From: Terriglobia bacterium
GTDB lineage: Bacteria; Acidobacteriota; Terriglobia; Bryobacterales; Bryobacteraceae
Assembly: GCA_010084195.1 (NCBI GenBank)
Contig: RGPS01000005.1
Location: forward strand, 1-64,000
DNA: 64,000 bases
Reading direction: 5' to 3'
Positions 47,932-52,771 of the stretch are shown piece by piece. The position numbers and the translations under genes are program-made. How positions within the stretch are numbered: the stretch's first letter is position 1; every line of letters starts with the position of its first letter. Under the pieces are notes generated by a model. It saw only the letters and a list, made by a program, of their open reading frames with translations. It was not told where the DNA came from and did no database searches.

Positions 47932-48984
47932 ATGGATCTTTTCTCACCTCTCACGCTGGGCGACTATTCACTCAGCAACCGGATTGTAATGGCACCAATG
48001 ACGCGTTCGCGCTCCAATACGGAGGCGGTGCAATCCGAACTCGCTGTTGAATATTATGAGTCGCGAGCTGACGGGGGACTTTTGATCACCGAGGGCACCG
48101 GGCCTTCTGCCATGGGCATGGGCTATGCCCGGACACCCGGAATCTACAACGACGAACAGATCGCGGCCTGGCGCAAAGTTACCGATGCCGTCCACGCAAA
48201 GGGCGGGAAGATTTTCCTGCAGATCATGCACGTTGGTCGGATTGCGCACTCGGCGAACCGCACCATTGCTGCTGCACCCATTGCGCCATCGTCCATTCGC
48301 GCGGCGGGACAGATGTGGACGGATTCGCAAGGGATGCAACCGAACGACCTGCCGCGCGCGTTGGAGACTGCAGAGATTCCAGGGGTGATTGCGGAGTTTG
48401 CATCCGCAACCACAAACGCGTTGGCTGCGGGTTTTGATGGCGTGGAGTTGCACGCCGCGTCGGGGTATCTGCCGAATCAATTTCTGAGCGCGGGCGCTAA
48501 CCAGCGTACCGATGCCTATGGTGGTTCGCTTGAGAACCGGATTCGGTTTGTGGTGGAGACGCTGCAGGCGATGGTGGCAGCGGCGGGTTCGGCGGGGAAG
48601 GTCGGAATCAAGGTCAGTCCCGGCATGAAGTTCAATGACATTGCGGATGCGGACCCGATGCCGACGTTTATTGCGCTGGCAAATGCGATTTCGCCGATTG
48701 GCCTGGCCTATCTGCATCTGATGCGGACCGGGATCGGTTCGGAGGCGGCTCTGCGGGCCGCGTACAACGGCACGCTGCTGGTGGGTGGCGGGTACGGCAA
48801 AGCTGAGGCGAACCAGGTCCTGGCGGCCGGCGCAGCAGAGGGCGTGGTGTTTGGGACCAGCTATCTGGCGAATTCGGATCTGGTAAAACGGTTCGCAACC
48901 GATGCACCCCTGAATACGCCGGAGGCTTCGACATTCTATACACCGGGGCCGAAAGGTTATACAGACTACCCAACCCTGGGTTAG
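47932..48984 (+). CDS. Old yellow enzyme family alkene reductase (NemA-like)
   Basis: 350 aa TIM barrel. Family motifs: LSNRIVMAPMTRSRSN at the N-terminus, GKIFLQIMHVGRIAH, GFDGVELHAASGYLPNQFLS with the His/Asn pair, AYGGSLENRIRFVVE and the FMN phosphate-binding end GVVFGTSYLANSDLVKR. FMN-dependent enzyme that reduces activated alkenes (enones) or nitro compounds with NAD(P)H in the cytoplasm. It is convergent with the carotenoid oxygenase (one base between stops). Physiological substrate unknown. Confidence 0.9.
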   Translation: MDLFSPLTLGDYSLSNRIVMAPMTRSRSNTEAVQSELAVEYYESRADGGLLITEGTGPSAMGMGYARTPGIYNDEQIAAWRKVTDAVHAKGGKIFLQIMHVGRIAHSANRTIAAAPIAPSSIRAAGQMWTDSQGMQPNDLPRALETAEIPGVIAEFASATTNALAAGFDGVELHAASGYLPNQFLSAGANQRTDAYGGSLENRIRFVVETLQAMVAAAGSAGKVGIKVSPGMKFNDIADADPMPTFIALANAISPIGLAYLHLMRTGIGSEAALRAAYNGTLLVGGGYGKAEANQVLAAGAAEGVVFGTSYLANSDLVKRFATDAPLNTPEASTFYTPGPKGYTDYPTLG

Positions 48985-48985
48985 T

Positions 48986-50428
48986 CTACTCGAATTCGAA
49001 GCTGGTGTGGAAGCCGGCGTGAATCATGTGCTTCAGGGGCAGCCGTGCAATCGGGCCCTGGGGGATATTAAAGGCGTCGAAGATGAGGAATTCCACTCGG
49101 CCGTCGGCAGGGAGGAAGTGTTGGCAGATAATGACCGCTTCCTCCTTGTTCGCCGGGTTGCAGACGCAGACTGGCTCGCCGCCCAGGTACTCCTGGCGTG
49201 GCACCCGGTAGACCTCAGAGATGGAGTGGGTCTTCCAGCTGCCACGGATTAGTTCGTCGAAGAATTTCCGGCCACTGGCGTGGAATTCTCCTATTCCCAG
49301 GGCCCAGAAGTCGTCGAGCTCGGTACCGGCGCGGGCGGCATCAACGGCGGGGAAATCGGGCGATTTGTCATACTCCATCGCGATTCGCTCGCGGAGAGCC
49401 TGGGTGTCCAGATCGATCACGTAGCGCACCGGACGGCAGGCGGGCGCAGTCCCGAACAGATCAGGGATGGGCTGATACTCGCCGTAAATGGGCCGTTCCA
49501 TTTCAAAAACGTCCACAAACAGGAGGCGCCCGTTGTCGCTGGTGTCTTCGTGGCAGTTGATCACGTGGAGGCAGTAGCCCGGTTCCACATCCACACGGAA
49601 AGCAGGTTCGGTTTTGGCCGAACGCTGGGCGACGAGAATGGTGGAGCCCTTGTCGGGTTCCCAATTCAGGGACTCCATCACGGAAACCCCATCGTTGACG
49701 AAGCGATTGAAGTCCATGATGAGGGGACTGAGATAGAACGCCACGTAGTTGGGCGTCATGCCCATGTCGTGGAGAGAATGCTGGTACTTCAGAGGATGAC
49801 GGCGGCGGCGGAGCATCTCGCCGGCTGCGTCGAACTCATAGACATTGAGCATGGGCTCAGTGGCTGAAAAGGAGACGCCGAAGTTCAGCAGGTGGCCGTT
49901 GGCGGGATCTGTCTTGGCGTGAGCAGCGAAGGGAGTGATGTCACTGATGGAGCCATTGAAATCGTAGTCCCCCTGAGACTCCAGGGTGATGGGGTCCATG
50001 GCGACCGGCATGGACTGTTCGCCGAATGCGAGAAGCCGGTTGGCATAGCGGTAGACGCTGACGTTGACCGGAGGCTCCAGCATCACGTTCCGCCGGGTCT
50101 TATCGCCCGGGAAAGAAGTGCCGAAACCGCGGTAGACGAACCGACCAGCGGCATCTTCCTCCTTCAGCTTCGCGGTTTGGATGAAGCGGTTCGCGAAGTG
50201 GACCCCCTCACCGGTAAAGCGAAGTGTGCAGATCATACCGTCGCCATCCAGCCAGTGCTTGTAACGCATTCCGGCTCGCTCGAAACGGGCAGGCCCATTT
50301 ACGTAGTACGAACCGCGAAGCCAGCCAGGGATTTCACCCTGAATACCGGTGACTTCGTAAGAGTCCTCGGTGGCGTCGAAGAGAAAACAGCGTTCCAGAA
50401 GGGGGGCGGCGTCGGTATGGTCTGACAT
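48986..50428 (-). CDS. Carotenoid oxygenase (RPE65/CCD) family protein
   Basis: 480 aa, the usual length. The four iron-binding histidines are expected in DITPFAAHAKTDP, QHSLHDMGMT, CLHVINCHED and HAGFHTSFEF (the last at the extreme C-terminus), and the N-terminal block GEIPGWLRGSYYVNGPARFE, HWLDGDGMICTLRF is typical. These non-haem Fe(II) enzymes cleave carotenoids, stilbenes or related C=C bonds with O2. Third gene of an operon after a thioredoxin-like and a flavin halogenase-like gene (4 bp gap), so its substrate may be a specialised metabolite made by that pair rather than a housekeeping carotenoid. Confidence 0.88.
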   Translation of the reverse strand: MSDHTDAAPLLERCFLFDATEDSYEVTGIQGEIPGWLRGSYYVNGPARFERAGMRYKHWLDGDGMICTLRFTGEGVHFANRFIQTAKLKEEDAAGRFVYRGFGTSFPGDKTRRNVMLEPPVNVSVYRYANRLLAFGEQSMPVAMDPITLESQGDYDFNGSISDITPFAAHAKTDPANGHLLNFGVSFSATEPMLNVYEFDAAGEMLRRRRHPLKYQHSLHDMGMTPNYVAFYLSPLIMDFNRFVNDGVSVMESLNWEPDKGSTILVAQRSAKTEPAFRVDVEPGYCLHVINCHEDTSDNGRLLFVDVFEMERPIYGEYQPIPDLFGTAPACRPVRYVIDLDTQALRERIAMEYDKSPDFPAVDAARAGTELDDFWALGIGEFHASGRKFFDELIRGSWKTHSISEVYRVPRQEYLGGEPVCVCNPANKEEAVIICQHFLPADGRVEFLIFDAFNIPQGPIARLPLKHMIHAGFHTSFEFE

Positions 50429-50432
50429 GGTT

Positions 50433-52208
50433 TTAAGAAGTGACAGCGGACTCCATTGCTTTTTCCTCCATGGATTTGGAGGTCATGGGCATGGAGGCGG
50501 TGTTGACGAAGTTTTCCAGTGCGAACGGGTTCAGGTTCCACTGGTGGACATCTTCGCAGTCGGCGTGTCTGGCGTAGTGTTCGCGCATTTTTTCAGCATC
50601 AAACATAGCGTCGCGCAGCTTGATGCTGTTAATGAAGGCCGCGTTCACAAGCACTCGCTTATCACCGACCACTGAGGCATAAACCTGGGCGATGATCCAG
50701 CGGGCAAACTCGCGGAGGCGTTCGACGTGCATGTCGAGTTTGTCTTCGGCCTGTTCGGTGGTGATTCCGACCTCATAGAAGAGCTTTTCCGACATGCGGA
50801 GAGGTTCGATGGAGTAGAACTCGACGTGTTCCGGTTCGGCGCGGCCAAGGAGGTCATTGGCCTTCTTCCAGTCGAAATAGTCGTGGAGAAGTTTCTGGAC
50901 TGTGCGGTTGATGGGGCCGAAGATGGCGAAGCGGCGGAGGTAGGCCGTCATGAACTTTCGATCCGCAAAGAGCTGATTCACGAAGGGCATGACGTAGAAA
51001 CCAAAGTAGATGGCCAGTTCCCAGGTGTATTTCAGGGTGAGGGTTTCCTGGTCGCCAAGACAGTTGTAGCTGAGCTGGTAGGACGGGATGTACGCGTCGT
51101 ACATGACGCGCATGATCTGTTCAAAGAAGCTGCATTTGGCTTCGAGGTCACCGGCCTCCTTCGTCTGGATAGCGTCTACGATGAGGGTGTTATAGATGGC
51201 GATGAGGTCGCTGCCGGGGCTGTAGAGGGGGTCGGAGAATCGCCCGGCCTCGCCGGTGATGGCCCACTTCGAGGCATCAATGGTTTGGCGCGCGTCGTAA
51301 GAGTAATTCACGAAGCGGCCTTCGTCGAGGATCTTGCGTTTGGCGAAGTCTTCGGCGAAAAGGGGCCAGTCTTTGGCGACCCAATCGAGCATTTTACGCC
51401 CATTCGAGACTTCTTCGGGATTGACTATGGAGTGGTCATAGACGAGACCCAGGCTGGTCTTGCCATGGAGCGGAATGACCCAGAACCAGCGTCCTTCGCC
51501 GCAGAAGTGGCCGGTACCGAGGAAGAAGGGGAAGTTGCCGAGTTCCTGACGCTTGGGGTGGTTAATCATCTCCTTGTGGGAGAAGTGGGTGAACCGTTCA
51601 TAGTTCACAATGCCATCAACCCAGGCCCAGGTGGAGCCGTGCTGAATCTGGTTCTTTTTCTCTAAAGCCAGTGATCTCTTGAGGATACCGGGACGCCCCG
51701 AAGCGTCAACCACCCACGGACCAGCGGCAGCTCCGGTCGCCCACGTGACCTTGTGGTCCGTGCCATCTGTTGCAAGATCGATCTTAATGTTCCGGGCTCC
51801 GCCTATGAAAGTGAACCGGGGATTCTCTTTGTGCACCTTCATGAGGTGTTCTTCGAGCAAGTTTCGGTCCAACTGGAAGGTGGCGATGTTGGAAAGGGTC
51901 CGGATAGCGGACGAGGACACATCTTCCCAATAATCGTGGCGTCCGCTGGTGGTTTTCCAGTGGAAGCGGAGGTTGTATTTCAGGAAATGGCTGGTGAGCA
52001 GATGCTCTTCGAGATCCAGCGTCCGGTAGAGGTAGTAGCCGGCGAGTTGCACCAGCGACTCACCAACTTTCATCGACTTTCCGGGCGGATTCTCCTGCTT
52101 ATCCAGAAGGAGGACGGTCTTGTCTGTTTCGAGCAGCAGTTGGCGGGCCAGGGTTAGGCCGGCCAGACCCGCGCCAGTAATAATGACGTCGGCTTGCACA
52201 GGGTTCAT
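50433..52208 (-). CDS. FAD-dependent oxidoreductase, tryptophan-halogenase-like
   Basis: 591 aa. FAD-binding GAGLAGLTLARQLL at residues ~12-25, then VGESLVQLAGYYLYRTLDLE with the GES motif shared by flavin halogenases, and WFWVIPLHGKTSLGLVYD near residue 245, the WxWxIP motif characteristic of flavin-dependent halogenases. The second GG-like segment is EAGRFSDPLYSPGSDLIAIY. The long C-terminal part (from ~400) is helical and not like PrnA. The halogenase catalytic lysine cannot be placed with certainty, so it may be a halogenase or a related monooxygenase. It overlaps the thioredoxin-like gene by 4 bp. Confidence 0.75.
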   Translation of the reverse strand: MNPVQADVIITGAGLAGLTLARQLLLETDKTVLLLDKQENPPGKSMKVGESLVQLAGYYLYRTLDLEEHLLTSHFLKYNLRFHWKTTSGRHDYWEDVSSSAIRTLSNIATFQLDRNLLEEHLMKVHKENPRFTFIGGARNIKIDLATDGTDHKVTWATGAAAGPWVVDASGRPGILKRSLALEKKNQIQHGSTWAWVDGIVNYERFTHFSHKEMINHPKRQELGNFPFFLGTGHFCGEGRWFWVIPLHGKTSLGLVYDHSIVNPEEVSNGRKMLDWVAKDWPLFAEDFAKRKILDEGRFVNYSYDARQTIDASKWAITGEAGRFSDPLYSPGSDLIAIYNTLIVDAIQTKEAGDLEAKCSFFEQIMRVMYDAYIPSYQLSYNCLGDQETLTLKYTWELAIYFGFYVMPFVNQLFADRKFMTAYLRRFAIFGPINRTVQKLLHDYFDWKKANDLLGRAEPEHVEFYSIEPLRMSEKLFYEVGITTEQAEDKLDMHVERLREFARWIIAQVYASVVGDKRVLVNAAFINSIKLRDAMFDAEKMREHYARHADCEDVHQWNLNPFALENFVNTASMPMTSKSMEEKAMESAVTS

Positions 52209-52771
52209 AGGGATCTCGGAAGGATGTAGTAGACGGACTGGATGGCGCAGCCGAAGCTGGCGGTTTCGTTGCGAGTGAGGGGTTCACCGGCCTCGAAGCT
52301 TTCGATGGCCGGTTCCAGATACCCGAGAAATTCGGGATCTTCGGGGTACTTGAAGTTATCGATAGCGCCACGGTAGAGGAGCCTGCCTTCACTATCCATC
52401 AGGAAGGCACGGGGAGTCTGGTGGGTGTACCATTTGGCCGCAACTTTGCCCATGGGGTCGAGGATGATGGGGTAGGTGATTTTGCGCTCTTTGGCTGCCT
52501 TCTTCACGTCATCGGCGGTTTCGCCGTGGCGGGAGGCGAGGACGAAGAAAGCGAGATCGGGGTGTCGCTCGGCGAAGGTGTTCAGAATCTTGTCGTAACG
52601 CACGCAGTGGGAGCAGGTGCTGGACCAGAAAACGACAACCGCGCCCTTTTTTTCCGTGAGAGCGACGGAGAGTGTGACTTCCTTACCGTCGAGACCCGTG
52701 AGGGTGAAGTCGGGCAGAGGCGCTCCGAAATCCTGTATTACGTTTACTGTTTCCAAGGTGTATGTCTCCAA
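52205..52771 (-). CDS. Thioredoxin-like/peroxiredoxin-type protein
   Basis: 188 aa from a TTG at 52771. No signal peptide. AhpC/TSA-type fold: PLPDFTLTGLDGKEVTLSVA, VVVFWSSTCSHCVRYDKILN with the active CSHC, YPIILDPMGKVAAKWYTHQT and PRAFLMDSEGRLLYRGAIDN. The redox pair is thioredoxin-like rather than peroxiredoxin-like. First gene of the three-gene operon, overlapping the halogenase-like gene by 4 bp; it could reduce or deliver a cofactor or substrate for that enzyme. A final C-terminal Cys (FGCAIQSVY) is unusual. Confidence 0.85.
   Translation of the reverse strand: METYTLETVNVIQDFGAPLPDFTLTGLDGKEVTLSVALTEKKGAVVVFWSSTCSHCVRYDKILNTFAERHPDLAFFVLASRHGETADDVKKAAKERKITYPIILDPMGKVAAKWYTHQTPRAFLMDSEGRLLYRGAIDNFKYPEDPEFLGYLEPAIESFEAGEPLTRNETASFGCAIQSVYYILPRSL

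Follow-up and report, generated by a model that had tools for sequence, protein, structure and literature searches.

Acidobacteriota abound in soil and freshwater, and little is known of their metabolites. In a catalogue of type II polyketide synthases (PKS), pairs of a ketosynthase (KS) and a chain-length factor (CLF) were found in 14 phyla, Acidobacteria included (PMC10132072). The ladderane-candidate clusters of anammox bacteria, such as kuste3603-3608, contain an acyl carrier protein (ACP), a FabF, a FabF without catalytic residues, and a phytoene-desaturase-like flavoprotein (PMC2649909, PMC4790861), which did not desaturate phytoene (PMC4790861). Type II PKS of the ishigamide type, which are highly reducing and make polyenes, use the same KS-CLF heterodimer logic together with an ACP and a ketoreductase. 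Here, we describe an operon of three genes in a 64,000-nucleotide stretch of DNA from a lake acidobacterium (contig RGPS01000005.1, our C335; hereafter the window), which codes for a redoxin, a FAD-dependent protein of the halogenase superfamily (HAL), and a protein of the carotenoid-cleavage-oxygenase/RPE65 family (CCO). We propose that this trio supplies the tailoring enzymes of a type II polyketide pathway whose genes are spread, in this genome, over two contigs, and we give this full mechanistic statement a probability of about 60%. Its parts all belong to known kinds; their combination (KS-CLF, halogenase-type flavoprotein, CCO, HMG-CoA-reductase (HMGR)-like, CrtI-like, and ASPIC proteins) is new as far as we found, no description of it having been met in the literature outside most subscription journals.

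The window comes from a draft metagenome-assembled genome (MAG; G000; 6.5 Mb, 628 contigs, 94.4% complete) whose close relatives, in a contig-level comparison, are Bryobacterales/Acidobacteriia MAGs. The operon occupies positions 48986-52771 of the minus strand and is transcribed in the order redoxin, HAL, CCO, with a 4-bp overlap between the first two genes and a 4-bp gap between the last two. An earlier note on this DNA had named the three open reading frames (ORFs) and their families, and ORF calls and Pfam searches confirmed both (Table 1). The same order recurs in other species of the genus at 61-90% identity, and the HAL-CCO pair is found at 38-48% identity in unrelated Acidobacteriota families. 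Among 19 genomes of the genus, six carry a HAL orthologue and seven a CCO; the trio is syntenic in G003 and G015, while in G002 and G010 the redoxin and HAL genes are separated by an ASPIC gene. Once the loci had been annotated with a codon-composition gene caller suited to GC-rich DNA, CCO was found directly after HAL in 14 of the 18 HAL loci (the window, L015-L018, L053-L060, and L062). Three of the exceptions (L019 of G007, L052, and L061) have their CCO elsewhere in the genome, and the fourth (L063) comes from an incomplete genome. Moreover, the distances among HAL and among CCO sequences are parallel (r=0.96, Mantel p 2e-4).

We then extend this comparison to the phylum, using one set of 396 Acidobacteriota genomes and cut-offs of E<1e-160 for HAL, E<1e-120 for CCO, and E<1e-90 for CLF. 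A Pfam PF04820 search of G000 itself returned no match, hence the use of an alignment of the subfamily for the genome searches; a search of genome contigs with the single HAL protein recovered two close relatives only. Members of the HAL subfamily occur in few, scattered genomes (12/396). CCO is present in 11 genomes, all among these 12 (Fisher 1.5e-20), and the sole HAL genome lacking it, G286, is 77% complete. CLF is present in 13 genomes, 11 of them in common with HAL (Fisher 1.1e-18 for HAL-CLF and 1.3e-16 for CCO-CLF; all these Fisher p-values ignore shared ancestry). The carriers span nine families, absence being the rule in between, and one genome (G306) holds each of HAL, CCO, and CLF twice. 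Thus, the co-occurrence that the earlier note had proposed to look for is very strong, and its view of the trio as a coherent, undescribed pathway unit holds. HAL, CCO, and KS-CLF are linked in these genomes, a point of which we are practically certain. In this way, three loosely annotated genes are placed in a defined pathway, whose presence and absence follow an almost perfect pattern across the phylum and whose enzymes are testable singly.

The chain-building genes stand beside the HAL-CCO pair in distant genomes. Indeed, a ketosynthase pair precedes HAL in L054 and L057-L060, accompanied by an ACP in all but L058. In L054 and L060, HAL-CCO comes after ACP-KS-CLF; an HMGR-like gene separates these two groups in L057, and L058 has the order KS-CLF-HAL-CCO. 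HMGR-like and CrtI-like genes follow CCO in L059 and are also found in L061. ACP adjoins KS in L054, L057, L059, L060, and L061, as it does in the loci of the genus. In G000, these genes are located on another contig, C557 (20678-29292, locus L086; Table 1), where the second ketosynthase is assigned as the CLF because its active-site cysteine and both histidines are missing. The core gene order of this locus is repeated in the six other genomes of the genus with a CLF. Within the genus, the CLF orthologue is found in exactly the seven CCO genomes (G000, G002, G003, G007, G010, G015, and G016; 19 genomes, Fisher 2e-5). The HMGR-like gene has the same 7/19 distribution and HAL is in six of the seven. 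Confinement of HMGR to the cluster is true within the genus only, some HMGR being present in 71 of the 396 genomes of the phylum.

Two observations tie the two loci together. First, the CCO of G007 lies inside the KS-CLF/ASPIC cluster. Second, the loci share an ASPIC orthologue whose sequences are 61-71% identical to one another and about 34% identical to other ASPICs; it belongs to the PKS locus in G000, G003, G015, and G016, whereas in G002 and G010 it separates redoxin from HAL. These genomes contain many ASPIC genes, as many as 33 in one genome, and we asked whether their adjacency was mere background. The 26 copies in the 6.5 Mb of G000 predict 0.1 per 25 kb, whereas at least four ASPIC/UnbV genes, together with TPR proteins, are found within about 25 kb in L086 and L087; ASPIC genes are thus enriched near the PKS locus. 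The additional ASPIC and TPR genes lie upstream of the listed C557 genes. In G007, G010, and G002 (L088, L090, and L092), the PKS locus is extended by genes for a TetR regulator, a PlsC-type acyltransferase with an extra N-terminal region, a DinB-type protein, and unknown proteins, which are candidates for lipid attachment and regulation.

What chain would this system make? The KS matches ishigamide Iga11 (6kxd, Iga11-Iga12) at 2.9e-104, versus 5.5e-74 for the actinorhodin KS 1tqy. It is closest to chain B of PDB 9S5H and the CLF to chain C of the same entry, while the ACP has 7AUF as best match and 9S5I chain E as third. The entry 7AUF is an anammox ACP. From these matches, a reduced, polyene-type chain appears as the likeliest product. 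The ladderane-candidate clusters and the syntenic cluster of Desulfotalea psychrophila share with C557 the set of ACP, FabF, non-canonical FabF, and phytoene-desaturase-like flavoprotein. However, they possess radical SAM enzymes and FabZ, neither of which is seen among the annotated neighbours here, and they have not been described with HAL, CCO, HMGR-like, or ASPIC genes. The ring-forming chemistry of these clusters is still open, so that a relative equipped with other tailoring enzymes offers a comparison. No radical SAM enzyme was found among the annotated neighbours of the PKS and HAL loci, some flanking ORFs being unscanned; likewise, these neighbours include no aryl polyene gene (ammonia lyase/aryl starter or other APE-type), no dedicated search having been made. 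Ishigamide-type clusters are not known to carry a halogenase-type flavoprotein, CCO, HMGR-like, CrtI-like, or ASPIC genes. With ASPIC/UnbV domain proteins next to a polyketide system, the loci resemble the enediyne cassette (UnbV), and they also invite comparison with CRTAC1-like ASPIC proteins. However, the enediyne PKS is an iterative type I enzyme, none of which is present among the annotated neighbours here, and KS and CLF are each encoded as separate proteins. UnbV and a weak "deiodinase" match of the redoxin suggested a link to enediyne-type iodination, which was set aside, no literature support having been found.

By its fold and motifs, HAL groups with the non-tryptophan halogenases, and halogenation is its predicted reaction. 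It scores 31 bits to PF04820 (Trp_halogenase; cut-off 21) and has an FAD-binding GxGxxG motif (GAGLAG, residues 12-17). Its closest solved sequences are RadH, CndH, 3nix, ChlB4, and PltM. The AlphaFold model (predicted local distance difference test, pLDDT, 89.6) has as nearest folds PltM, CtcP, FasV, 3nix, CmlS, PltA, RadH, and CndH, with target template-modelling (TM) scores of 0.52-0.72 for PltM, CtcP, FasV, 3nix, PltA, and RadH. The earlier note had asked for the lysine and the glutamate of the halogenase active site. The lysine, K77, is there in every sequence covering it, aligns with that of RadH and CndH, and is kept even in relatives of 24-30% identity. The glutamate is not, since Tyr329 occupies the position of the activating Glu of tryptophan halogenases (E346 of PrnA) in all 23 sequences. 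The same loop reads DPFFSSG in RadH and DPVFSSG in CndH, which also lack the glutamate, so that its absence speaks against a tryptophan-type enzyme and not against a flavin-dependent halogenase (FDH). PltM, PltA, RadH, CndH, and CmlS share with HAL the fold, GxGxxG, GES, the lysine, and WxWxIP, and none has the tryptophan-type Glu. HAL differs from them by its low identity (13-20% in fold alignments), its own helical C-terminal region (residues about 352-570), and its CCO and KS-CLF partners. Plasmid matches from Janthinobacterium, Gloeothece, and Methylorubrum (22-28% identity) were set aside as distant members, since their neighbours differ and none of these is annotated as a CCO. On the Janthinobacterium lividum plasmid (L012:9890-21224), the distant relative stands beside an Asp/Asn beta-hydroxylase-type gene, an alpha/beta hydrolase, and a type I PKS. 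Other distant relatives (24-30% identity) lie beside non-ribosomal peptide synthetase/adenylation genes in G006 and G018 (L021:3694-15463, L020:7584-10912, and L022:5408-10105).

CCO has the four iron-binding histidines of its family (Table 1). Of the second-shell glutamates, E137 and E418 are kept, and the third aligned position is Asp358 in 15/15 sequences. Its best PDB match is the Synechocystis apocarotenoid 15,15'-oxygenase (ACO; 1.3e-42 to the best variant), and the model (pLDDT 86) is a beta-propeller with a TM score of 0.88 to ACO and 0.80-0.84 to lignostilbene/stilbene dioxygenases. The fold alone does not decide the substrate. ACO and the lignostilbene dioxygenases share the propeller and the four histidines with CCO. 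However, CCO is only about 24% identical to ACO in the fold alignment, carries Asp358 at a second-shell Glu position of ACO, and occurs, within the genus, in HAL hosts that seem to lack carotenoid synthesis.

In the pathway that we propose, the ACP, KS, CLF, and FabG-type ketoreductase of C557 would assemble and reduce an acyl chain, probably a polyene, which the CrtI-like flavoprotein may desaturate or isomerise. The HMGR-like enzyme, judging from the chemistry of its family, could reduce the thioester or release the chain as an alcohol. HAL would use FADH2 and O2 to form a flavin hydroperoxide and pass a halogen via K77 to the chain, hydroxylation being less likely. CCO, with Fe(II) and O2, would cleave one C=C bond and leave an aldehyde, in the manner of apocarotenoid oxygenases acting on carotenoids, and the redoxin and ASPIC/UnbV proteins would be accessory. 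We advance more tentatively, with the odds somewhat against it, the precise sequence in which a polyketide-derived polyene is halogenated and then cleaved by CCO, giving truncated (apo-type) halogenated polyenes, a new class of products, in Acidobacteriota. If CCO does cut a polyene made by KS-CLF, the carotenoid-cleavage enzymes would acquire a natural substrate that is not an isoprenoid.

Several points weigh against this proposal. None of the genes of the conserved PKS block was recognised as a dehydratase, and thus polyene formation would need the FabZ of the fatty-acid pathway. One genome (G068) has HAL-CCO and no CLF match, G016 combines CCO and PKS genes with a carotenoid cluster, and the PKS-linked HAL-CCO loci of distant genomes do not include the redoxin. 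The solved structure closest to CCO is that of an apocarotenoid oxygenase. Since proteins of the FDH fold include monooxygenases, the motifs of HAL do not prove halogenation. The argument from missing carotenoid genes, given below, rests on six genomes that are related to each other and is weak for G000 alone, a MAG of 94.4% completeness. More generally, the pathway is deduced from genome comparison and predicted structures, and its product is a prediction.

HAL could act instead, in the same polyketide pathway with CCO, as a flavin monooxygenase (hydroxylase or epoxidase) of halogenase fold. Its weak matches to the LodB maturase and the QhpG monooxygenase, its modest PF04820 score, the replacement of the tryptophan-halogenase glutamate by a tyrosine, and an operon without a flavin reductase gene would fit such an enzyme. 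On the other hand, the halogenase lysine is invariant and WxWxIP nearly so, a motif suggested to prevent monooxygenase function (PMC5945002); the closest solved folds are nearly all halogenases, and a ClC-family chloride channel/antiporter gene adjoins the trio in four species. We consider this role, the main rival to halogenation, rather unlikely. That the genes came together by chance in one lineage deserves almost no credence. It is true that the redoxin and ClC genes are not kept beside most distant HAL-CCO pairs, but the adjacency in 14 of 18 loci, at identities down to about 45%, the coupled presence and absence, and the parallel divergence refute it for HAL-CCO. Chance proximity may still account for the ClC gene and, in part, for the redoxin.

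The carotenoid or stilbene derivative suggested in the earlier note as a product is not supported by the genomes. A trio that makes or degrades a carotenoid (a halogenated apocarotenoid) would agree with the proximity of CCO to the Synechocystis enzyme in sequence and fold and with the CrtI-like flavoprotein of the linked PKS locus, and an exogenous carotenoid may serve as substrate. However, the PF00494 genes of the six HAL genomes of the genus consist of an adjacent HpnC/HpnD-like pair only, located in G000 in a hopanoid-type locus, and a PF00494 search revealed no phytoene-synthase-type (crtB-type) gene in any of the six, which weakens this reading. A further phytoene-synthase-type gene is present in 8/13 other genomes of the genus (Fisher 0.018). 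Moreover, HAL-CCO follows KS-CLF across the phylum, and the comparable CrtI-like proteins of the anammox clusters failed to desaturate phytoene (PMC4790861), all of which makes a carotenoid substrate improbable. Catabolism of plant phenolics or stilbenes, with CCO as a lignostilbene-type dioxygenase and HAL as a phenol monooxygenase, is very improbable. The top NCBIfam scores of CCO are indeed lignostilbene dioxygenase models, far below cut-off, and the folds of these enzymes match it at a TM score of about 0.8, but no aromatic-catabolism gene was recognised beside the annotated loci and the KS-CLF co-occurrence would be left unexplained. Of the eight genomes with a further phytoene-synthase-type gene, the four inspected, G018, G006, G009, and G016 (L097, L098, L099, and L100, respectively), show carotenoid-type clusters in which this gene adjoins CrtI-type or prenyltransferase-type genes.

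Table 1. Positions of the genes and motifs discussed, in the window (C335) and on contig C557.
Feature	Contig	Position	Strand	Details
Redoxin/AhpC-TSA family protein	C335	52205..52771	-	184-188 aa; PF08534 2.4e-14, PF00578 2.7e-14
CSHC (CxxC) redox motif of redoxin	C335	52604..52615	-	invariant in 5 orthologues
HAL, FAD-dependent halogenase-superfamily protein	C335	50433..52208	-	591 aa; PF04820 1.5e-07
GES motif of HAL	C335	52056..52064	-	residues 49-51; Glu50 in all aligned sequences spanning it; Ser51 is Ala in two
K77 of HAL	C335	51978..51980	-	aligns with catalytic lysine of FDHs (K79 of PrnA); Lys in 22/22 covering sequences
WFWVIP (WxWxIP) motif of HAL	C335	51471..51488	-	residues 241-246; W243, I245 in 23/23; W241, P246 in 22/23
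DPLYSPG loop of HAL	C335	51213..51233	-	Tyr329, Ser330, Gly332 in 23/23
CCO, carotenoid-cleavage-oxygenase/RPE65 family protein	C335	48986..50428	-	480 aa; PF03055 2.5e-92
His170, iron ligand 1 of CCO	C335	49919..49921	-	15/15 sequences; aligns with ACO ligand
His220, iron ligand 2 of CCO	C335	49769..49771	-	15/15 sequences
His288, iron ligand 3 of CCO	C335	49565..49567	-	15/15 sequences
His474, iron ligand 4 of CCO	C335	49007..49009	-	15/15 sequences
ClC-family chloride channel/antiporter	C335	52801..54246	-	PF00654 5.4e-66
ASPIC/UnbV	C557	20678-22807
CrtI-like flavoprotein	C557	23040-24644
Ketoreductase, FabG-type	C557	24662-25378
HMG-CoA-reductase-like	C557	25375-26601
CLF (second ketosynthase)	C557	26589-27761		L086:14589-15761; without catalytic Cys and both His
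KS	C557	27791-29038		L086:15791-17038; Cys-His-His in PTACAAG, SAHGTGTP, MLGHTMG
ACP	C557	29035-29292		L086:17035-17292

The ClC gene, which lies beyond the operon described in the earlier note, is located 29 bp upstream of the redoxin on the same strand and holds the same position in G003, G015, and G002 (66-88% identity). It is absent from the annotated G010 locus and distant HAL-CCO loci. It would possibly suit a halide-using enzyme, as a non-core neighbour. On the other side of the operon, an old-yellow-enzyme-type gene (47932-48984) is convergent with CCO, 1 bp apart; G003 and G015 retain it, whereas G002 and G010 do not, so that it is non-core.

The redoxin is ResA/StoA-like in a PDB search, and no signal peptide was seen. 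Its orthologues in G002, G003, G010, and G015 are 61-86% identical, and a third conserved cysteine, C175, is invariant in the same five sequences as the CSHC motif. The start codon at 52771 is a TTG, which may be 15 bp too early, since the orthologues start with METVNV, where the window has another TTG at about 52756. Another redoxin subfamily is found repeatedly close to HAL or to the PKS/ASPIC locus (L053:1379-1876, L062:4240-4743, L089:3040-3537, and L091:3988-4500).

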